From contig JAFPQL010000164.1 in assembly GCA_017414145.1 (NCBI GenBank), forward strand, positions 1-12,374: a stretch of DNA of 12,374 bases. The letters run 5' to 3'. Shown here in pieces: positions 3,007-12,243 of this stretch. Source of the stretch: Oscillospiraceae bacterium. GTDB lineage: Bacteria; Bacillota_A; Clostridia; Oscillospirales; Ruminococcaceae. Under the pieces are notes generated by a model. It did not search any database and was not told the DNA's origin. It saw nothing but the letters and a program-made list of their open reading frames with translations. Position 1 is the first letter of the stretch. Each line of letters opens with the position of its first letter. Both the position numbers and the translations under genes were made by a program.

Positions 3007-3288
3007 TTAGCATTTCTCGATCCGGTATCCGAGCGCGAGAATGGTCTTGAGGGTTTCCAGCGCGGTGTGGCGGTCGTAGTCGCGTTCTGTTTCCGTCAGC
3101 TCCGCATAGGGCACCAGACAGGGTGTCTCCTTTTTTCTGTCGTCGCGTGTTTCGCCGTAGCGCCAGCCCTCTGCCAGTCTGCCGGAAGCCCAGACCTCGT
3201 GGACATTTTCGGAGATCTGCTCTGTCAGCGCCAGCAGGTCGGCGGGCAGCTCAATGCCGCTTGTATCAATCGGCTTTGGTGTATACAT
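3007..3288 (-). CDS. Small stand-alone RyR-domain protein
   Basis: The whole 93-residue protein is one RyR domain, the small helical domain first named in ryanodine receptors and also found in bacteria. Recognisable elements are YTPKPIDTSGIELP at the N-terminus, ENVHEVWASGRLAEGW (32-47), YGETRDD just after it, CLVPYAEL (57-64) and the C-terminal ERDYDR...LETLKTILALGY block. No signal peptide or membrane segment is present, so it should be cytoplasmic. Prokaryotic RyR domains have been proposed as ligand-binding sensor domains; the ligand is not established here. AAAGGAG lies 11 nt before ATG 3288, and the gap to the preceding gene is 21 bases. That preceding gene also ends in a RyR-like domain, so the operon carries two. 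The short protein may be a sensor, adaptor or partner for the membrane protein or protease. Confidence 0.9.
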   Translation of the reverse strand: MYTPKPIDTSGIELPADLLALTEQISENVHEVWASGRLAEGWRYGETRDDRKKETPCLVPYAELTETERDYDRHTALETLKTILALGYRIEKC

Positions 3289-3309: not shown

Positions 3310-5619
3310 TCAGCTGCTGCGGGCTTCCAGATCCCGCAGGGGATTGTCGTAGGCCTTGTAGTTTGTCTGCGTCATGCTGCTGAATCTGTCCAGCAGATCC
3401 TCGCGCTCCGGCGGTTCCGTCAGGGGATTTTTCGTCTCCACGATGGTCGGATGCAGACGGAGTGCGATGTCCTTTGGCTGCAGATCGCTGCGGTGCATGA
3501 AGCCGAGCGACCGCATATACGCATTCCAGCGCCGGTGCTCGTTCCAGCTGAGCAGGGCATTGAGCTGCGGGTCGCCGGTTTCCGGCCGGATCAGACCGGC
3601 AAACTGTTCGGTGAGCGTCTGCCGGAGCCGGACCGCTTCAGGCGCAGAGAGCGCCTCTGCCGTGCGGAACTGCGTAAAGGCAGTCAGATTCTCCCGCAGA
3701 GATTCCGCGTCTTCCTTCCGCCGCAGGAATCGGAGCGCGGCAAACATTTTATAGCGGATGTGAACGGCTCTTGCCGTGCTGGACATATAGTTGTAGACAT
3801 TCTGCGCACGGGTGAGCATTTTCCCGGCGAGATCGGGCGTCCGCTGCGCTTCGTAGCTGCGGTTGAGAATCTGTGCGGAGCGTTCGGTGCTCTTGAGCAG
3901 AATGTTGTCGCTGCTGTAGATGTCCCGCAGACTGCCGACTGCCTGTGTGCGGATCATGCTGCCGGATGTGCCGATGCTGTCCGGACTGCTGTTGAGCGTT
4001 TCCGCGAGGTCGGCGTCATAGACGACACAGGCGATGAATACACGCCGCCTGCTTCCGCTGCGGACACGGTCTGCGGCGGCTGCCCGACGCAGGCGTTCGG
4101 CGGTTTCGATGTTCTTTTCGTCGCTGCCGAGTGCGACCAGCAGATAGTCGCAGTCGATCAGGCGGAGCGAGTCGGGCGCACTGTCCGGAATGCCGTCCGG
4201 CGCGAGAAGCGCAGTACAGGTCAGTGCCGCGATATCGCCGGCGGTCGCATCCGCCTGACAGTAGCGCAGCGTCATATAGGGCTCGTTGAGCACCTGCGGT
4301 TTGCCGTCGTCGTCCGGATAGACGCGCAGCAGGGGAGAGCCCGCCGCAGCGCTCTGCCGCAGTTCAGGATTGATCCGGTCGAGACGGGCGCAGAAATCCT
4401 CCGCGCTTCCCAGCGACACGGTGTTGATGCCGAGGGTGATGCCGGGCATCTGCCCGCACCACGAGGCGGCGAGCAGCATTTCCGTCCCGATGCCGCCGAA
4501 GCCGACGATGCCGACATTGAGTGTGCGGCACGCCGCCGGATCGGGCGAGGTCAGGAGCGGCTCATAGAGCGGATTGCTGGTCAGGAGCCGGTAGATCATG
4601 TTCTGTGCGCCGCGGACGCGGTCCACGGCGGGCATATGCGTGCGCACCTTCTCCTCGTCGCCGTGAAAGCGTCTGCGGAAGCTGTCACGGATGCGCCCGA
4701 TGATCTGCTGCTCTGTCAGCGAGAAGGAATCGTTGCTGTAGAAGATGCGGATGACCGTGCTGTCCAGATGTGCGCAGAAGGCGTCATCCGCGAGCGCGGC
4801 AAGGGTCTTGATGTTGTTGAGCTCGTTCTCGTCGATCAGGATATATTCCTTGGTGCGGCCCTTTCCTCTCCGGCTGATGATGCGGAGCAGATCCTCCCTG
4901 AGACAGATTGCGCCGAGTGCGCGGGCGCTGTCGAGCATCTCGGAGCGCGCCTCGTCCTCGCTGTCGGGGTAGGAGTCGGTGAAGATGATGCACGGGCGCC
5001 GCAGCGGACTTGCCGCCGCATTGCTGCTGCAAATGCTCTCCGCCAGCGCCAGAGAACGGGTGTTGAGTTCGCTGAAATAGAATTTCCGGCGTCTGCCGCA
5101 GAAAATTTCAATCAGCGCCAGACGGAGCTTCGGCAGGAAGCTCATGAGAATATTGAGGATAAAGGCACCGCCGATGACCGGCGCGGCGACATGGAGCAGC
5201 GACAGAATCAGACCGTAGACTGTGCCGGCCTGTTCGGTGCCGCCGCAGAGCGCTGTCATCATGGCTTTGCCGTCTGCGAGCCAGCGGGTGTAGTCTTCGT
5301 CCATGCTGAAGGTCTGGAGCCCGTGCAGCAGACTGTCGGCGGCGCGCTCGGCGGCGTTCAGGCCGTCCGCATCCGGGAGCGAAAGCCGGTTGACATAATA
5401 TCCCACGGCATATCGCTGCAAAGTCAGCACCATCAGCAGAAAGAGCGCGACGGTGAGCAGCCCGCTGAACTTCTTTCTCCGTCTGCGGACACTGCGCTGA
5501 CGGCGCACGGCCCGCAGAGGCACGATGACCGTCAGGAGAAAGCAGAGCAGCGTCAGCGCCGTCAGAATCCAGAGCAGACAGCGGTCGGCGGCCGACAGCA
5601 GGTTTGCAGGGTCAGACAT
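3310..5619 (-). CDS. Membrane protein with RCK/TrkA-like NAD-binding domains and C-terminal RyR-like domain
   Basis: This is a 769-residue protein. Hydrophobic segments lie near residues 14-36, 52-74 and 133-162, with a very basic loop (39-50) between the first two. A first Rossmann-like region (about 178-320) resembles TrkA-N/RCK domains. A second region (368-515) has a clear glycine-rich dinucleotide loop, VGIVGFGGIGTE (369-380), and DYLLVALGSDEKN (491-503), typical of RCK/TrkA. The C-terminus (about 684-765) carries NEHRRWNAYMRSLGF and TNYKAYDN, matching the core of RyR domains. RCK domains bind NAD(H) or nucleotides and gate channels. No canonical TVGYG filter is present, so a potassium channel is not supported. 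The start overlaps the protease stop by 8 nt, with AGGGAG inside the protease gene, so translation is probably coupled. It may be a membrane sensor that controls or anchors the protease; that role is inference. Confidence 0.85.
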   Translation of the reverse strand: MSDPANLLSAADRCLLWILTALTLLCFLLTVIVPLRAVRRQRSVRRRRKKFSGLLTVALFLLMVLTLQRYAVGYYVNRLSLPDADGLNAAERAADSLLHGLQTFSMDEDYTRWLADGKAMMTALCGGTEQAGTVYGLILSLLHVAAPVIGGAFILNILMSFLPKLRLALIEIFCGRRRKFYFSELNTRSLALAESICSSNAAASPLRRPCIIFTDSYPDSEDEARSEMLDSARALGAICLREDLLRIISRRGKGRTKEYILIDENELNNIKTLAALADDAFCAHLDSTVIRIFYSNDSFSLTEQQIIGRIRDSFRRRFHGDEEKVRTHMPAVDRVRGAQNMIYRLLTSNPLYEPLLTSPDPAACRTLNVGIVGFGGIGTEMLLAASWCGQMPGITLGINTVSLGSAEDFCARLDRINPELRQSAAAGSPLLRVYPDDDGKPQVLNEPYMTLRYCQADATAGDIAALTCTALLAPDGIPDSAPDSLRLIDCDYLLVALGSDEKNIETAERLRRAAAADRVRSGSRRRVFIACVVYDADLAETLNSSPDSIGTSGSMIRTQAVGSLRDIYSSDNILLKSTERSAQILNRSYEAQRTPDLAGKMLTRAQNVYNYMSSTARAVHIRYKMFAALRFLRRKEDAESLRENLTAFTQFRTAEALSAPEAVRLRQTLTEQFAGLIRPETGDPQLNALLSWNEHRRWNAYMRSLGFMHRSDLQPKDIALRLHPTIVETKNPLTEPPEREDLLDRFSSMTQTNYKAYDNPLRDLEARSS

Positions 5620-8600
5620 TGGCGGGCTCCCTGCGGACTGCGTGTGCCGAGAGGATGCGGCCGATCTCGTCGCCGGTCAGGTGATCGTGCTGAATCAGCG
5701 CATCGACGAGTGCGTCCACGGCCTCCTTGTTTTCGCGGATCAGCGAAACGGCCTGATCCATCTGTTCAGAGAGAATGCGGTTGACGGCGTCGTGAACGGC
5801 GGGCGCGAGCGCATTGCCGCTCTGACGGTCCGGATCGACCACGGCGAGGCCGAATTCATCGGTCATGCCGTAATAGCAGAGCATGGACTGCGCGACGCGG
5901 GTCGCGGTGTCCAGATCGCCGCTGGCGCCGGTCGAGATGCCGTCCTCATTGCCGTAATAGCAGAGCTCGGCGGCACGCCCGCCCAGTGCGGTGCGGATGC
6001 GTGCGAGCAGGTTTTCGCGGGTGCTGATCGGCTGATCCTCGTGATCGTCGTGCTGCATATAGCCGCCGTGATTGCCGCGGGCGACAATCGTGACATAGGA
6101 CGGATTTTCGCCGCTCTGCCAGCAGAGGAAGGTGTGTCCCGCCTCATGTCTGGCGACGCGCTCCAGCGTTTCGGGGTTCCACTTCTTGACATCGCCGCTG
6201 ACGAAGGTCTCGAAGGCCTCCTCCAGTACGGCGTCGGTGACGACGGTGCTGCCCTCGCGGATCGCGCTGCGCAGTGCCAGCTCAAAGACAGATTCAAGCT
6301 GTGCGAGGCTCATGCCGGTCGAGCGCACGGTCAGATTGTCAATCTGCTGGTCGGAGATCCGGAAGGCGGAGTTGGCGGCGAGCTTCATGCGGATGAACTG
6401 AATGCGGTCATCCTTCTTGGGCAGGTCGATGTAGACCCTGCGGTCAAACCGCCGCATGATCGCGCCGTCCAGACCCTTTCTGCTGGATTCGTCCGCATCA
6501 TAGTTGGTCGCGGCCAGCACAAAGACCGGCTTGGTCGGATCCTTCTTGAAGCCGTCCATTTCGGCGAGGAACGCCGTCAGAATCTCCTCCGCGGCATGGG
6601 TCTGTTCGCCGCCCGTGCGCTTTCTGGCAAAGGTGTCGATTTCATCGACAAAGAGAATCGACGGGGCATACTTGCGTGCGGTGCGGAAAATCTTGTGGAC
6701 AAGCTCCGGGCCTTCGCCGACATATTTCTTGAGGAACTGGTTGCCCTCCGCCGCGATGAAGGTCACATCGGATTCGGCGGCCATCGCCTTGGCGAGCATG
6801 GTTTTTCCGGTGCCGGGAGGACCGTAGAGCAGGACTCCTCTGGGCGCCGCGACGCCTGTGCCGAGATATTTTTTCGGATTGCGGAGATACTGCACGAAAT
6901 AGCGCAGCTCCTTCTTGGCGTCCTCCGCGCCGATGACCTCGTCAAACTTCACATCCGGGCGCGAGACGGCACTCAGCACATTGGCCTGATCCTCGGCATC
7001 GACCGCGACGCGCAGACCGAAGTCAAAGAGCCGGATGCGCGCTTTTTTGCCGTCCTCGGAGACAGACTGTCCCGTCTCGAAGCTGACGGCCTTGCTGGAG
7101 CGTGCCAGTTCGAGCATTCCGGCCTGCTGGTGCATCTGCCGGCAGATGGTTTCGATGCGGCTGCTGAAGGCTTCGGCACGCATCGGAATGATGTCGCGCA
7201 CGCCCTGCTGCTGGAAGGTTTCCGTTTCCTCCGCGCTGAAAGGCCGTTCCTCGTGCTCCAGCAGATAGACCGGCATCGAGGGATCGGCGGCGAGCAGGAA
7301 GCGGTAGAAGTCTCTCGAATCGGACGCAATGTCCTCGATGTTCAGGAACTGCTCGGTATTTTCACGCAGTCCGACGGTCATGTCCAGCAGCACCAGCTCG
7401 ATCGGATTGTGCTTCAGAAGCTCCTTGGCCGCCTCAACGCTCTCCGCGCAGACGAACTCGCACTGCGGGGCATTTTCGCGGCAGAAGGCGAGGGCTTCCT
7501 CGCCCGCAAAGAGCAGGATCTGCGGCTTTTCGTCCTGCGTGAACAGGCGCAGCACCTCCGGACGGTTTTCGGGCAGCATGACATCAAAGCTGATCTGCTC
7601 GATGTCCGAGACGCCGGTCTTGCGCGTGTCGGAGGAGACAAGGCGCAGCAGCTCAAAGATTTCGCTGTGGAAGAAGGATTCCGCACGGGCGCGGACCGCA
7701 CGGGCATCGGCGGCACCGCCCTCTCCGAAGAGCAGCGCCGGATAGACCGTCTCGTCGATCCGGATGTCGATGCCGCTGGCTTCCGTAAAGTTTTTCGCCT
7801 GCCGCAGAATCTCCTTCTTTGCGATCTTACAGAGATTGTATGCGGAGATGTGATTGAACATCACGACATTGCCGGAGGCAAAGCGCGAGAGAATGGCCGC
7901 GGGGAAGAACGCGCCGCCCGTCACCGGATTGATGTCGGTTTCCAGCGCTTTGAGAATGACCTTTCTGGTCAGCATGGCATAATTGCCCGTCTCGTTCTCC
8001 TCGTAGAGCTGTCTGCCGGCGTTTGTTGTGAAGAAGATGATCGTATCCTTGAAGGAGACTTCCTTATCGGTATAGCTGTCGCGGAGTCTGCCCGCGTCCA
8101 GAAGTTGCAAAAAGAGGTGGATGACGACCAGATGCGCCTTCTCGATCTCGTCAAAGAGCAGGACGCAGCGCGGATTTTTGGCGACAAATCCGGTGACATT
8201 GCCCTCCTGCGCGCCCTTGTAGACCTTGTCGGAGCCGGCGAACTCGGTGTTCGCCTCCTTGTCGGAATATTCGCTCATGTCAAAGCGCATGAAGGGCAGA
8301 CCGAGCGCTTCGGCGGCCTTTTCGGCGAGCAGAGTCTTGCCGACGCCGGGAGGCCCCGCAAAGAGGTAGGTCGCCCGCGGCCGGATGCGCGTTTTGTCCA
8401 TCATGGCGAGCATCTGCCCCTGAAAATAACCCTTTGCAAAGAGGTTGACAGCGTGATCCTGCCCGAAAACGGTCTGCAGGAGCTTGGCGCGCAGCGATTT
8501 GGTCTGACGGGTCAGCTCGTCCATGGAAAGGGGCTGCTCCTCCGGCTGCTCCGGTGCGCTGCCCTGGAGCTTCTGCTTCTGCACCAGCTCGTCGAGCGAG

Positions 8601-9229
8601 AATTTGCCGGACTGCTCCGGTGCTTCCTTCGTCGGGGCGGGCTTTTCGGCGGGCTTGTCAGCAGGCTTTTCGCCGCTGCCGCCGAGATTGAGGCCGGCGA
8701 GCGAGATGCTGCTGCTCTGCTTCAGCAGCGCATCGACGGAGATCGGCTCGCCGCTTTCCTCGGATGCTTCCGTGCTCTCGCCGGATTCGCCGGCCGGTTC
8801 GGGCGCGGCTTTGCCCGCGCTGCCGGAGCATTCCTTGAGTCCCTTTTCGATGATCGAGCTCGGCTCGCGGAGAATGCAGGCGAGCAGAAGCTCCGGCGAG
8901 AGCGTTTCCTCATGTGCCGATGCCGCCTCTGCGCGTGCCTCGATCAGCTTTTTGGAGAGGTACATACTGTCCTGAAAGATGCGTTTCCCCTCGGAAATAT
9001 AGTCAATCAGCACCGTCTTGAGCGCCTGCAGGTTGACGCGCTCCTGTTCGGCGCGGTTTTGAAACTGTGTAAAGGGCTGTTCGCCTTCAATCGGGAAGGT
9101 GCCGTCCAGCACCTCGATGACCGTGAGCAGATACCGCTCTGCGGTGAGCTGCGCGCCGGCTTCGCGCACGACCTCTCTGGAATGGTCGAGCAGCAGCTTC
9201 AGCAGCGCACTGTTTTTCACTTCAGCCAT
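5612..9229 (-). CDS. Fusion protease: Clp_N-like, Clp-type AAA+, receiver-like domain, FtsH-type AAA+, M41 peptidase
   Basis: This 1205-residue protein combines two unlike AAA+ modules. Residues 1-132 resemble a Clp N-domain (two LLL-type helical repeats). Residues 134-245 are an Ala/Glu/Pro/Ser-rich linker. Residues 246-500 form a Clp D2-like AAA+ with Walker A GPPGVGKT (292-299), Walker B LLFDEIEKAH (357-366) and sensor TTNAG (401-405). Residues 568-690 look like a response-regulator receiver (LVLLDM, D616). Residues 757-950 form an FtsH-type AAA+ with GPPGTGKT (803-810), pore loop KYVGEG (835-840), LFVDEID (859-865) and RRFDRR (926-931). Residues 1020-1200 form peptidase M41 with zinc motif HEAGH (H1028, E1029, H1032) and third ligand D1105 in STGASGD. 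All catalytic residues are present, so an active ATP-dependent protease is expected. Unlike FtsH it has no N-terminal membrane helices. ATG 9229 follows GGGAG by 9 nt. It is the first gene of the operon. Confidence 0.93.
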   Translation of the reverse strand: MAEVKNSALLKLLLDHSREVVREAGAQLTAERYLLTVIEVLDGTFPIEGEQPFTQFQNRAEQERVNLQALKTVLIDYISEGKRIFQDSMYLSKKLIEARAEAASAHEETLSPELLLACILREPSSIIEKGLKECSGSAGKAAPEPAGESGESTEASEESGEPISVDALLKQSSSISLAGLNLGGSGEKPADKPAEKPAPTKEAPEQSGKFSLDELVQKQKLQGSAPEQPEEQPLSMDELTRQTKSLRAKLLQTVFGQDHAVNLFAKGYFQGQMLAMMDKTRIRPRATYLFAGPPGVGKTLLAEKAAEALGLPFMRFDMSEYSDKEANTEFAGSDKVYKGAQEGNVTGFVAKNPRCVLLFDEIEKAHLVVIHLFLQLLDAGRLRDSYTDKEVSFKDTIIFFTTNAGRQLYEENETGNYAMLTRKVILKALETDINPVTGGAFFPAAILSRFASGNVVMFNHISAYNLCKIAKKEILRQAKNFTEASGIDIRIDETVYPALLFGEGGAADARAVRARAESFFHSEIFELLRLVSSDTRKTGVSDIEQISFDVMLPENRPEVLRLFTQDEKPQILLFAGEEALAFCRENAPQCEFVCAESVEAAKELLKHNPIELVLLDMTVGLRENTEQFLNIEDIASDSRDFYRFLLAADPSMPVYLLEHEERPFSAEETETFQQQGVRDIIPMRAEAFSSRIETICRQMHQQAGMLELARSSKAVSFETGQSVSEDGKKARIRLFDFGLRVAVDAEDQANVLSAVSRPDVKFDEVIGAEDAKKELRYFVQYLRNPKKYLGTGVAAPRGVLLYGPPGTGKTMLAKAMAAESDVTFIAAEGNQFLKKYVGEGPELVHKIFRTARKYAPSILFVDEIDTFARKRTGGEQTHAAEEILTAFLAEMDGFKKDPTKPVFVLAATNYDADESSRKGLDGAIMRRFDRRVYIDLPKKDDRIQFIRMKLAANSAFRISDQQIDNLTVRSTGMSLAQLESVFELALRSAIREGSTVVTDAVLEEAFETFVSGDVKKWNPETLERVARHEAGHTFLCWQSGENPSYVTIVARGNHGGYMQHDDHEDQPISTRENLLARIRTALGGRAAELCYYGNEDGISTGASGDLDTATRVAQSMLCYYGMTDEFGLAVVDPDRQSGNALAPAVHDAVNRILSEQMDQAVSLIRENKEAVDALVDALIQHDHLTGDEIGRILSAHAVRREPANV
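8504..8749 (-). repeat. Three copies of a short peptide motif in the protease linker
   Basis: Within the low-complexity linker the motif hydrophobic-S-x-D-x-L-x-x-Q recurs three times: ISVDALLKQ (163-171), FSLDELVQKQ (210-219) and LSMDELTRQ (234-242). The surrounding Pro/Ala/Glu/Ser-rich sequence is not similar between copies, which makes the motif stand out. Its regular form suggests short helices that bind the same surface, either on another subunit or on the protein's own domains. Confidence 0.6.
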
Positions 9230-9289: not shown

Positions 9290-9318
9290 ATTATACTGAA
9301 TAATAGGCGTTTTGTCAA
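9290..9318 (-). promoter_or_regulatory. Perfect sigma-A promoter of the protease/RyR operon
   Basis: On the minus strand TTGACA (9318-9313) is followed by a 17-bp spacer and TATAAT (9295-9290). Both hexamers match consensus exactly and the spacing is optimal. Transcription should begin near 9283, giving a leader of about 54 nt before ATG 9229 that carries the GGGAG ribosome site. No operator-like repeat is obvious, apart from a small CGGA/TCCG inverted repeat in the leader near 9259-9270. This suggests steady, strong expression of the operon. Confidence 0.9.
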
Positions 9319-9330
9319 CAGTGCAGACAG

Positions 9331-9366
9331 ATAAAAAAGAGGACGCCCCGCTGTCAGGGGGCGCCC
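9331..9366 (-). terminator. Intrinsic terminator of the SPFH operon
   Basis: On the minus strand GGGCGCCCC (9366-9358) pairs with GGGGCGTCC (9349-9341) through one G-U wobble, with an 8-nt loop. TCTTTTTTAT follows at once. In the plus orientation the same position is an A-C mismatch and there is no U-tract, so it works for minus-strand transcripts. It lies just 13 bp upstream of the protease promoter's -35 element and separates the two operons. Confidence 0.9.
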
Positions 9367-9418
9367 TGTCGGTTTATGAATCAGGTTGTAAAACGGGGCA
9401 TGGTCTGTCTGCTCCGGT

Positions 9419-9676
9419 TCACCGTTTCCAGATGCGGCGGAGTCCCAGAAAATACAGCCAGCCCATCAGCAGGGCAATCAGTCCGCCGGCCACGGCCGTG
9501 CCGCGGTTCCCCTTGCGCAGTCCGCTGATGATCAGCAGCAGACCGATCACTGCAAACGGCAGGCAGACAAGGGAGGTCAGCACGGTTTTGACGACCCGCG
9601 GTACCCGTCTGCTCTCTATTGTCATCCCGAACAGCTCCTCCAGCAGGGAGCCGATGATCTCAATTAAAATTTCCAT
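9419..9676 (-). CDS. Small two-helix membrane protein, unknown function
   Basis: This is an 85-residue protein. The N-terminus (1-20) is an amphipathic stretch, MEILIEIIGSLLEELFG. A basic segment (SRRVPRVVK) follows, then two hydrophobic helices at about 30-52 and 59-78 separated by RKGNRG. The protein ends in RRIWKR, so both termini probably face the cytoplasm. I do not recognise a named family. ATG 9676 lies 1 base past the stop of the ribbon-helix-helix gene, with CGGAG about 9 nt upstream, so it is the third gene of the SPFH operon. It may be a membrane partner of the SPFH protein; this rests only on position. Confidence 0.8.
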   Translation of the reverse strand: MEILIEIIGSLLEELFGMTIESRRVPRVVKTVLTSLVCLPFAVIGLLLIISGLRKGNRGTAVAGGLIALLMGWLYFLGLRRIWKR

Positions 9677-9677
9677 A

Positions 9678-9887
9678 TCACTGCGCTCCGAACTGATCTA
9701 ATTCCACATCCAGCGGCCTGTCGATTTCCCGCCCGACATAGCCGCCGTTTTTTCTCCGCTGCTTCACGCACTCCGTCAGGATATACTCGATCTGTCCGTT
9801 GACGGAGCGGAAATCGTCCTCAGCCCATGCGGCAATGGCATCATAGAGCTGCTCGGACAGGCGCAGCGGAATCTGCTTTTTTGCCAT
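9678..9887 (-). CDS. Arc-type ribbon-helix-helix DNA-binding protein
   Basis: This 69-residue protein begins AKKQIPLRLSEQLYDAIAAW, the strand and first helix of a ribbon-helix-helix (Arc/MetJ) domain. The second helix follows in RSVNGQIEYILTECVKQRRK. The last 20 residues are polar and probably disordered. Such proteins dimerise and bind short, often tandem palindromes. The gene starts at ATG 9887, overlapping the SPFH stop codon by one base (TGATG), so translation is coupled. The operon's own promoter overlaps two tandem ATGATATCAT-like palindromes, a plausible site for autoregulation. It could be mistaken for an antitoxin, but no toxin-like partner is seen; the next gene is a membrane protein. 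Confidence 0.88.
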   Translation of the reverse strand: MAKKQIPLRLSEQLYDAIAAWAEDDFRSVNGQIEYILTECVKQRRKNGGYVGREIDRPLDVELDQFGAQ

Positions 9888-10921
9888 CAGTACAGCGAGC
9901 CGGAGTTGACAACCGGCTGGGCGTCATGGTTGCCGCACAGCACCACCAGCAGATTCGAGACCATTGCCGCCTTGCGCTCCTCGTCCAGCTCCACCGTCTT
10001 GTTTTCGCTGAGCCGTTCGAGCGCCATCTCGACCATGCCGACCGCGCCGTCCACGATCATCTTGCGGGCATCAATGATGGCAGATGCCTGCTGCCGCTGG
10101 AGCATGACCGCTGCAATCTCCGGCGCATATGCCAGATAAGTGATGCGTGCCTCCAGGATTTCGATGCCTGCGTTTGCAACCTTCTGCTGGATTTCATCGC
10201 GGATTCTCGCCGCGACGATCTCACTGGAGCCTCTCAGGCTGCCCTCGTCCGCAATGCCGTCGCCGGTCGTGTCCACATTCGGCGCGACATCGTAGGGGTA
10301 GATTCTGACGATGTTTCTGAGCGCGCTGTCACATTGCAGAGAAAGATACTCTTTATAGTTATCGACATCGAACACCGCCTGTGCCGTATCGGTCACGCGC
10401 CACATGACGGCGATGCCGATCTCGACCGGATTGCCGAGGCAGTCGTTGATCTTCTGGCGGTTGTTGTTCAGCGTCATGATCTTGAGCGAAATCTTCTTTG
10501 ACGGCATCATAATGTTGATATCCTGCTTCGTATCACCGCTCTGCGTCTGCACCAGACCGACTGACGCGACATCGCCGCTCTGCCGCAGTCTGGTCGCGGC
10601 CGCCGGATTGAAGCTGACGCAGAAGGGGTTGACCCAGTAGAAGCCGTCCTCCTTGAGCGTGCCGATATACTTGCCGAAGAGCGTCAGCACGAGCGCCTCC
10701 TGCGGCTTCAGGACCTTGAGGCCGAGCAGCGGAATCCAGCCGAGACAGAAGTAAATCAGACCGACGAGGAACAGTGTCAGTCGAAACGCGTTCACGCCGT
10801 CCTCGCCCTCCATGCCGCAGGCGCCGTAAACAAACAGCGCGACTGACGCGGCCTCCAGCAGCAGGAACAGCAGCATCATCGGGAGCCCGTTTTTCTTCTT
10901 TTTGATTATGATTTCTTTCAT
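9887..10921 (-). CDS. SPFH/band 7 domain membrane protein
   Basis: This 344-residue protein has a basic N-terminus (KEIIIKKKK) and two hydrophobic helices (about 13-35 and 46-68). The SPFH/band 7 region runs from VLKPQEALVLTLFGKYIGTL (70-89) to about residue 260: GFYWVNPF (93-100), VEIGIAVMWRV (166-176) and ALRNIVRIYP (200-209). The C-terminal part (235-310) is predicted helical, with the typical LQRQQASAIIDARK. SPFH proteins form membrane rings or microdomains and some (HflK/HflC, prohibitins) hold FtsH-type proteases. A loop VDTTGDGIADEG (216-227) resembles a calcium-binding thrombospondin type 3 or EF-hand loop, with one acidic position missing. ATG 10921 follows AAAGGA by 9 nt. It is the first gene of a three-gene operon with the ribbon-helix-helix protein. 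Confidence in the family is high; its role is not known. Confidence 0.93.
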   Translation of the reverse strand: MKEIIIKKKKNGLPMMLLFLLLEAASVALFVYGACGMEGEDGVNAFRLTLFLVGLIYFCLGWIPLLGLKVLKPQEALVLTLFGKYIGTLKEDGFYWVNPFCVSFNPAAATRLRQSGDVASVGLVQTQSGDTKQDINIMMPSKKISLKIMTLNNNRQKINDCLGNPVEIGIAVMWRVTDTAQAVFDVDNYKEYLSLQCDSALRNIVRIYPYDVAPNVDTTGDGIADEGSLRGSSEIVAARIRDEIQQKVANAGIEILEARITYLAYAPEIAAVMLQRQQASAIIDARKMIVDGAVGMVEMALERLSENKTVELDEERKAAMVSNLLVVLCGNHDAQPVVNSGSLY

Positions 10922-11518: not shown

Positions 11519-11547
11519 TTGACATTCTCAATAGCGTTTGGTATAAT
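11519..11547 (+). promoter_or_regulatory. Perfect sigma-A promoter of the acetyltransferase gene
   Basis: TTGACA (11519-11524), a 17-bp spacer and TATAAT (11542-11547) match consensus exactly. Transcription should begin near 11554, giving a leader of about 50 nt with no obvious attenuator hairpin. The ribosome site TTAGGAG ends 7 nt before ATG 11605. Confidence 0.9.
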
Positions 11548-11604
11548 GCTTGTATAGGGTAAGCACTCGGTTTGCTCGTGAATTTGGTGTTTAGGAGTGA
11601 TTGG

Positions 11605-12243
11605 ATGAAAAATGGGAAACGACCTGATCCTGACAAAGTTCACCCGATCAATGGGTACGATAAAGAGATCTATATCAAGCCTACGATCAACAACCCCAAC
11701 ATTATTGTGGGTGACTTTTCATATATAGCTGATTCAGACTTTGAGAGTCATGTAACACACCATTATGAGTGGAATGGCGATAAGCTGATAATCGGCAAGT
11801 TCTGCCAGATAGCAGCAGGCGTTGAGTTTGTTATGAATGGTGCAAATCATCAGATGAACGCTGTGTCTACTTTTCCGTTCTACACGCTGGAAGGCTGGAA
11901 TATGGAGCCGCCTGCAATGGCTGACCTACCCTTAAAGGGAGACACGGTCATCGGCAATGATGTGTGGATAGGTCAAAATGCCGTCATTCTCCCCGGCGTT
12001 CACATTGGTGACGGTGCGATCATTGGTGCAAACAGCGTTGTAGGCAGAAATGTTGAACCTTACACAATCGTTGTCGGCAATCCTGCAAAGGTACTTCGTA
12101 AGCGTTTTGATGATGAGCTGATCGGACTGTTGCTCCGTTTCAAATGGTGGGATAAAAGCGTTGATGAAATAAATGCGTTGATTCCAATTCTGACTCGCAG
12201 TGATTTGAATAGGGTCAGAGAGGAGTTGAAAGCAAGGCTATGA
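11605..12243 (+). CDS. Vat-like xenobiotic acyltransferase (putative streptogramin A O-acetyltransferase)
   Basis: This 212-residue protein belongs to the hexapeptide-repeat xenobiotic acyltransferases. Aligned from memory with Vat(D), it shares HPINGYDKEIYIKP near the N-terminus, LIIGKFCQIAAGVEFVMNGA (61-80), KGDTVIGNDVWIGQNAVILP (111-130), the repeats GVHIGDGAIIGANSVVG, GNPAKVLRKRFD and IGLLLRFKWWD. The catalytic histidine is kept in NGANHQM (H82). Enzymes of this type transfer acetyl from acetyl-CoA to a hydroxyl of virginiamycin M-type antibiotics in the cytosol. Whether this copy gives resistance cannot be told from sequence; many clostridial relatives are untested. ATG 11605 is preferred over an upstream TTG (11572) because AGGAG lies 7 nt before it. 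Base composition is clearly more AT-rich than the operons to the left, consistent with transfer. Its stop overlaps the next start as ATGA. Confidence 0.88.
   Translation: MKNGKRPDPDKVHPINGYDKEIYIKPTINNPNIIVGDFSYIADSDFESHVTHHYEWNGDKLIIGKFCQIAAGVEFVMNGANHQMNAVSTFPFYTLEGWNMEPPAMADLPLKGDTVIGNDVWIGQNAVILPGVHIGDGAIIGANSVVGRNVEPYTIVVGNPAKVLRKRFDDELIGLLLRFKWWDKSVDEINALIPILTRSDLNRVREELKARL

Follow-up and report, generated by a model that had tools for sequence, protein, structure and literature searches.

Can one polypeptide carry both an unfolding ring of the Clp type and a complete FtsH-type protease, and, if it can, what does such a protein do in its host? The question is raised by a 12,374-nucleotide stretch of DNA from an Oscillospiraceae bacterium (GenBank assembly GCA_017414145.1, contig JAFPQL010000164.1), which we analyzed over its whole length and refer to as the window. 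An open reading frame (ORF) at positions 5612–9229, free of internal stop codons, encodes a protein of 1205 amino acids (aa), and a first-pass annotation made from the sequence alone had proposed that a Clp-type AAA+ ring, an FtsH-type AAA+ module and an M41 peptidase are joined in this chain. Our analysis bears the proposal out and adds a receiver-fold domain within the protease and linked genes for RyR, RCK and CARF proteins, which had been missed and which provide the best functional clue. All window features described below lie on the reverse strand unless stated otherwise.

Domain organization of the hybrid protease

Pfam searches placed PF07724 (AAA_2) at residues 283–417 (118.2 bits, cut-off 27; positions 7979–8383), PF00004 (AAA) at residues 799–935 (169.5 bits, cut-off 21.2; positions 6425–6835) and PF01434 (Peptidase_M41) at residues 1022–1191 (115.2 bits, cut-off 29.9; positions 5657–6166). 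All three scores are far above the cut-offs, and the layout, AAA_2, AAA and M41 in one chain, is certain at the sequence level; the Clp-like half clearly matched an AAA_2 model, a point on which the first-pass annotation had made the proposal depend. In NCBIfam, residues 232–499, containing the first module, best matched ClpA (TIGR02639; 167.2 bits, equivalog cut-off 993), and residues 754–1189 best matched FtsH (TIGR01241; 331.5 bits, equivalog cut-off 600), which, together with the alignment, identified the modules as ClpA-D2-type and FtsH-type, respectively. As neither equivalog cut-off was reached, the suggestion that the architecture is unlike standard FtsH or Clp held up. The subset of the open-access literature that we searched contained no description of this protease family or layout, so that it did not prove to be a well-described family there.

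The fourth Pfam family named in the first-pass annotation as one to search for, PF02861 (Clp_N), stayed below its cut-off (17.3 vs. 20.7 bits) and was found at E ≤ 0.01 in one of 31 family members. When a family profile was compared with PDB, the ClpA N-domain ranked first, with an E-value of about 0.005 for the whole sequence and 0.1 for the single domain. These profile matches lend weak support to a Clp N-domain, and residues 1–240 (positions 8510–9229) may consist of a divergent Clp_N-like domain and a low-complexity linker.

Between the two AAA+ modules, at about residues 568–700 (positions 7130–7528), lies a receiver-fold (REC) domain. A plain Response_reg assignment from Pfam was set aside, because sequence comparison yielded only a weak cREC match below the cut-off; the profile of this domain likewise gave weak matches in PDB, headed by a de novo protein and followed by response regulators. 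The assignment was settled by fold comparison of a predicted model, in which the (βα)5 receiver fold is present. The phospho-acceptor Asp of strand 3 corresponds to D616, which is kept in 33 of 34 sequences and replaced by Asn in one, and inspection of a 32-row alignment by eye revealed no conserved column for the Thr/Ser after strand 4 or the Lys after strand 5. The domain is probably a pseudo-receiver, judging from these positions.

Conservation of the family

Residue conservation was assessed in an alignment of the window protease (P0001) with 33 relatives (34 rows). In the first AAA+ module, the Walker A residue K298 is present in 32/32 rows with letters at this position, and Walker B D360/E361, sensor-1 N403, the arginine finger R449 and sensor-2 R510 in 33/33 such rows; the pore loop is aromatic in 33/33 (Tyr in 32, Trp in one). 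K809, D862, E863, R926 and R927 of the second module occur in all 34 rows, as do H1028, E1029 and H1032 of the HEAGH motif (residues 1028–1032) and the third zinc ligand, D1105. The two complete Walker sets of different AAA+ clades and the intact zinc site, which had first been read from the window sequence, are therefore kept across the aligned relatives, and both AAA+ motors look active by their motifs. Because these residues are kept, the fused protease represents a conserved family and neither a chance nor an assembly join.

No 19-residue stretch of the window protein reached a hydrophobicity of 1.6 (maximum 1.43), and no membrane anchor is predicted. The earlier description of the protein as soluble fits the window protease, but not every relative: 5 of the 34 family ORFs, read from the most upstream start, reach at least 1.6.

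A protein database search scored 7998 candidates, 5033 of them at E ≤ 0.001. The 120 homologues listed, query included, cover 79–100% of the query at 51–100% identity and are 1119–1240 aa long; the 7 that carry a name are all called "AAA family ATPase". Scanning of genome contigs, an approach that picks up close relatives, detected 33 loci in Clostridia, Oscillospiraceae, Ruminococcus, Eubacterium or Lachnospiraceae records, many of which mention a mammal or the mammalian gut. As a separate observation, one protease relative (G986:C15:4993-7461) lies within a 2021-aa open frame and is possibly part of a larger fusion.

RyR and RCK-RyR genes beside the protease gene

The gene following the protease gene overlaps it by 8 bases (positions 3310–5619) and encodes a 769-aa membrane protein, here called the RCK-RyR protein. 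Its N-terminal membrane helices are followed by two RCK/TrkA-like Rossmann domains, with a GxGxxG Rossmann motif, and by a C-terminal divergent RyR-like domain. Pfam, NCBIfam and PADLOC gave no match for this protein; the RCK assignment came from fold comparison of a predicted model, in which a tandem RCK gating ring was recognized. The last 170 residues matched no Pfam family at E ≤ 1 and did not reach the PF02026 cut-off, and the C-terminus is termed RyR-like only by its residue pattern (E694, H695, R697, W698, R703, G706, H723 and D741). By eye, the protein has no TVGYG-type filter; an acidic TFSMDEDY sequence follows a short helix, and each of its residues is found in 52–64 of 67 RCK-RyR proteins.

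The next gene (positions 3007–3288) encodes a free-standing 93-aa RyR domain (PF02026; 126.6 bits, cut-off 27.4). According to a preprint on the phage glycosidase RyDEP (PMC13232231), the RyR fold is employed by phages on cyclic ADP-ribose immune signals, and the functional positions of RyDEP are H75, W78, H100 and D117, comprising a catalytic/ligand His and Asp, an adenine-stacking Trp and the phosphate-binding H100. By residue-number spacing, not by alignment, these positions were placed on H30, W33, T55 and D72 of the window RyR domain. H30, W33 and D72 are present in 15/15 aligned free RyR domains, and His, Trp, His and Asp stand at matching places in 67/67 RCK-RyR proteins. Among 120 RCK-RyR homologues listed, three (P0209, P0231 and P0237) carry a second C-terminal RyR domain and thus repeat in one chain the order of the two neighboring window genes. 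The PF02026 annotation of P0209 and P0237 was attributed to this second domain by reading the sequences; the second RyR domain of P0231 is more divergent.

Linkage of the protease gene to RyR, RCK-RyR and CARF genes

Among the 33 relative loci, an RCK-RyR gene is found in 15, a free RyR gene in 13 and a Card1-like CARF nuclease gene in 12, and at least one of the three is present in 21. Linkage was quantified in 28 genomes, which exclude loci L006, L013, L028, L029 and L033 (L029 belongs to the same metagenome-assembled genome, MAG, as L010). In these genomes, 13 of 20 strong RyR matches lay within 3 kb of the protease gene, compared with 0.16 expected within 6 kb under random placement, and 13 of 24 CARF nuclease genes lay within 6 kb, compared with 0.19 expected. 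As a control, canonical FtsH lay within 10 kb of the protease in 0/22 places. The RyR count was based on 20 matches at E ≤ 5e-33; seven weaker matches were dropped, two of which fall within RCK-RyR proteins next to the protease, and inclusion of all rows gave 15/27. The 24 CARF places were obtained by merging 32 rows by hand. Two near-identical loci on two contigs of one genome (G009; L010 and L029) were counted twice, and subtraction of one yields 12/19 for RyR and 12/23 for CARF.

Six of the seven RyR copies located away from the protease adjoin an RCK-RyR gene (one, at L034, by coordinates). At L036, two YbjN genes, a CARF gene, two RCK-RyR genes and a RyR gene occur on a contig without the protease. 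Since RyR copies also occur beside RCK-RyR genes away from the protease, the RyR/RCK pair is an independent unit that the protease accompanies in many cases but not in all.

The CARF nuclease and possible sources of a signal

Three representatives of the linked nuclease matched the PADLOC model CARF4--CARF_PDDEXK along their length (best E-values 5e-30 to 8e-32), and E325, D327 and K342, among other columns, are invariant in 13/13 sequences. Pfam Card1_endonuc remained below the cut-off in all three (best 25.2 vs. 26.4 bits).

Type III CRISPR was considered as the source of a signal and rejected: Csm1 was over the cut-off in 0/28 genomes and matched weakly in 12/28, and 9 of the 15 rows match near positions 7–125, perhaps an HD domain of another protein. 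The Cas10 palm model PF22335, which also matches in E. coli, was over the cut-off in 3/28 genomes, with 84 bits in one (G010) and 27.3 and 27.9 bits (cut-off 27) in the others, and a SMODS cyclase was detected in 2/28. The screen covered Csm1, Cas10 palm and SMODS in unfinished MAGs, with Cmr2 and other cyclase families outside it. Because these models match few of the 28 genomes, the CARF nuclease is left unexplained by Cas10 or SMODS cyclases. Two further clues to a signal are single cases out of the 33 loci: a 1473-aa TPR protein matching TIR_2 (29.9 bits, cut-off 28; L031:3435-7853), encoded with a CARF nuclease gene on one side and the genes for the protease, RCK-RyR and RyR on the other, is a possible signal maker, and an ADP-ribosylglycohydrolase gene (L008:7119-7907) lies directly upstream of the protease, RCK-RyR and RyR genes.

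Distribution and relation to canonical FtsH

Samples were drawn around genome G001, which was counted each time, and for each genome the best two to three candidates were scored. The hybrid protease was found at E ≤ 1e-100 in 3/391 genomes of the class, 3/398 of the phylum and 4/197 of the family, and two of the four family-level matches were partial or odd. The protease is an accessory and not a core protein. In 21/28 genomes, a canonical FtsH over the cut-off is present besides it. Carriage on plasmids or phages was set aside: 72,556 plasmid and 50,697 phage records held no copy covering 80% of the query, and the listed rows, 5 of 6 for plasmids and 5 of 24 for phages, match the FtsH half.

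A proposed role in a nucleotide-signaled effector module

We propose that the hybrid protein serves in the cytosol as an accessory, ATP-dependent zinc protease with two motors and controls an effector module made up of a nucleotide-gated channel and nuclease, a reading for which we see the chances as evenly balanced. The Clp-N-like head would pick the substrate, and the ClpA-D2-like ring, the receiver-fold spacer and the FtsH-like ring would stack into a single hexameric path that unfolds the substrate and feeds it into the fused M41 chamber. The partners would sense nucleotide-type ligands, namely, the RCK-gated channel-like protein with its built-in RyR domain, the free RyR domain, which probably docks on or tunes the RCK-RyR protein, and, in many relatives, the CARF nuclease. 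The protease would most likely set the state of these effectors through turnover of the RyR, RCK or CARF proteins or of a factor that restrains them, and the effectors would then act only upon an ADP-ribose-like or cyclic-nucleotide signal, e.g., when phages attack or the cell is severely stressed. A role in defense against phages is plausible. More tentatively, the protease may be the hub of a new nucleotide-signaled immune module in gut Clostridia, composed of an RyR-gated channel, a free RyR domain that sets its sensitivity and a Card1-like second effector, all armed or disarmed by the double-ring M41 protease; we regard this fuller scheme as possible rather than probable. If it were true, a bacterial ligand-gated channel would sense an ADP-ribose-type signal through the fold of animal ryanodine receptors. 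The linked genes provide a bacterial system in which one can test whether an RyR-type domain gates a channel in response to an ADP-ribose signal.

Several findings weigh against the proposed effector module. The pore aromatic of the second motor (Tyr, Phe or Trp) is present in 26/34 rows and is thus not universal, and this motor may grip its substrate less strictly, as far as the alignment tells. Of the 15 free RyR domains, 13 have Thr at the position equivalent to RyDEP H100, one has Asn and one has His. The CARF nuclease had no relative in PDB by sequence, and no CARF nuclease was detected among the 8 window genes (all 8 covered by Pfam, 7 by PADLOC). No signal synthase was consistently linked to the protease loci, no PADLOC model spanned the whole protease, and the plasmid and phage records lacked a full-length copy, as described above. 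None of the RyR, RCK-RyR and CARF genes was found in 12/33 loci, several of which are cut by contig ends. Two distant members, L056 (28% identity) and L057 (38%), lack both the N-terminal region and RyR, RCK-RyR or CARF neighbors, and the protease layout may for this reason predate its association with the sensor genes. Finally, 5/28 genomes (G015, G017, G020, G025 and G028) have no FtsH-model match at E ≤ 1e-60 other than the hybrid protease, so that it may replace FtsH there unless these MAGs are incomplete. At L057, a 514-aa protein without a Pfam match (L057:11143-12684) overlaps the end of the distant protease gene and is a possible partner there.

The loci without the RyR, RCK-RyR and CARF genes, the distant members that stand alone and the genomes without a separate FtsH match speak for a protein-quality-control protease, i.e., a soluble FtsH variant with a Clp-type unfoldase ring that deals with aggregates and whose neighbors are incidental, and its domains are indeed typical of general proteostasis machines. 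We nevertheless consider this unlikely: the linkage to RyR and CARF genes is far above chance and holds among proteins that share about 45–65% identity, and the distribution of the protease is patchy. A role in ion or redox homeostasis appears no more probable. The RCK-RyR protein would then be an NAD/ADP-gated cation channel whose level is tuned by the protease, without any immunity; the gating-ring fold, the GxGxxG motif and the membrane helices agree with such a channel, and GsuK, a dual-RCK channel, is activated or opened by ADP and NAD+ (PMC3510474). However, this explanation accounts neither for the CARF nuclease linked in 12/33 loci nor for the patchy distribution. Proteases in known systems are more often a trigger than a brake, and we give little credence to a toxin–antitoxin-like arrangement in which the protease would be a constitutive brake on a putatively toxic channel-like protein and nuclease and its loss in infection would release them, even though the strong consensus promoter, overlapping genes and effector-type neighbors are in keeping with it.

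Transcription unit and other genes

A sigma-70 promoter with perfect consensus (TTGACA-17-TATAAT, 12/12 matches) is located at positions 9290–9318, 60 bases 5′ of the protease start codon. No perfect match is expected in shuffled sequences, and the window holds one more, at 11519–11547. In L001, a 90% identical relative, the same consensus is found at 7892–7920 with a different spacer sequence, the gene being at 8001. The promoter (9318–9290) lies just downstream of an intrinsic-terminator-like hairpin (10 pairs, 8 of them G-C, and a T tail; positions 9340–9367), which sets the unit off from the genes upstream. Downstream of the protease gene, the genes overlap or start within 30 bases of one another, in the order 769-aa protein, RyR domain, fused MFS/spermidine-synthase-like protein (positions 1379–2977; NCBIfam) and membrane metallophosphoesterase (positions 266–1366; Pfam). 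The last two genes are probably co-transcribed with the unit and are lineage-specific passengers, the former being found in 2/33 relative loci (L001 and L024) and the latter in 1/33 (L001, where it is cut by the locus end).

Upstream of and outside the unit are genes for an SPFH/Band_7 membrane protein (positions 9887–10921) and an 85-aa two-helix membrane protein (positions 9419–9676). These were considered as HflK-like partners of the protease and rejected: the SPFH protein matched HflK weakly, and the hairpin and the promoter separate both genes from the unit. Neither was detected in the 33 relative loci (tblastn, E ≤ 1e-3). Farther upstream, on the forward strand (11572–12243), a hexapeptide acetyltransferase near the Vat/CatB group (269.5 bits, Vat cut-off 300), of xenobiotic acetyltransferase type by likeness, has the second consensus promoter as its own.

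Other neighbors in the 33 loci are YbjN-like genes (in 10), TerB-like genes (in 5) and genes for an HEFGH metallopeptidase (in 4). The YbjN-like label corresponds to 19.9 bits, below the Pfam cut-off of 22, in the one representative scanned; "TerB-like" was assigned by eye, with no Pfam family, and the HEFGH protein matched M10 below the cut-off. YbjN-like genes lie upstream of the protease or of CARF/RCK-RyR genes, mostly as tandem pairs, at L004, L005, L006, L007, L011, L016, L020, L024, L025, L030, L036, L043 and L058. At L007, L016, L021 and L025, a 367–400-aa HEFGH protein gene is followed by a TerB-like gene of 152–161 aa near the protease; at L030, the TerB-like gene occurs without the HEFGH gene.

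Comparison with known systems

The linked genes resemble known effectors in part. As in dual-RCK channels (GsuK, DMI1/CASTOR and Slo), the membrane helices of the 769-aa protein lead into a tandem-RCK gating ring, here a predicted one; unlike those channels, the protein ends in an RyR-like domain, and it is only predicted to be channel-like. The free RyR genes share PF02026, the catalytic/ligand His and Asp and the adenine-stacking Trp with phage RyDEP (PMC13232231), but they are host genes whose neighbors encode a protease and a channel-like protein, and the H100 equivalent is mostly Thr. The linked nuclease has the CARF and PD-(D/E)xK domains and the conserved nuclease residues of Card1 and Can2, whereas the 28 genomes show few traces of type III CRISPR, and the nuclease is not a window gene.

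The protease itself is best filed as a variant AAA+ protease. With FtsH and the i-AAA and m-AAA proteases (TIGR01241, M41) it shares an AAA+ module with a second region of homology fused to M41, the HExxH motif and the third-ligand Asp, but it has no predicted N-terminal anchor and contains an extra AAA_2 ring, a receiver domain and possibly a Clp_N-like head; because the anchor is missing and the equivalog score is not reached, it is not FtsH. With ClpA, ClpB and ClpC (Hsp100) it shares a D2-type AAA_2 module, two AAA+ modules per chain and, possibly, the Clp_N head. It is not a Clp/Hsp100 protein, because its second ring is of the FtsH type and its peptidase, fused to the chain, is of another kind; the order of the AAA+ clades differs as well. 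Since the peptidase is fused, no ClpP partner should be needed. A further parallel is found in the MoxR-vWA ternary conflict systems with FtsH described by Kaur et al. (2020; PMC7159879), in which the first AAA+ module is FtsH-type and inactive and MoxR and vWA genes adjoin. These systems, too, have a protein with two AAA+ modules, the second being FtsH-type and active, in a setting that is accessory and conflict-like, but the first module of the window protease is AAA_2 with intact Walker motifs, and its neighbors are RyR, RCK and CARF genes. Neither the 8 window genes nor the 19 neighbor representatives scanned, a minority of all neighbors, included a MoxR or vWA partner.

The hybrid protease probably works like FtsH and Clp/Hsp100 in series. 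The few layouts of self-compartmentalized AAA+ proteases include FtsH, Lon, ClpXP/AP/CP, HslUV and the proteasome. A chain in which rings of the Clp and FtsH types, with a receiver spacer between them, are joined to a single M41 chamber is a different layout, which poses the question of how two unlike motors are coupled.

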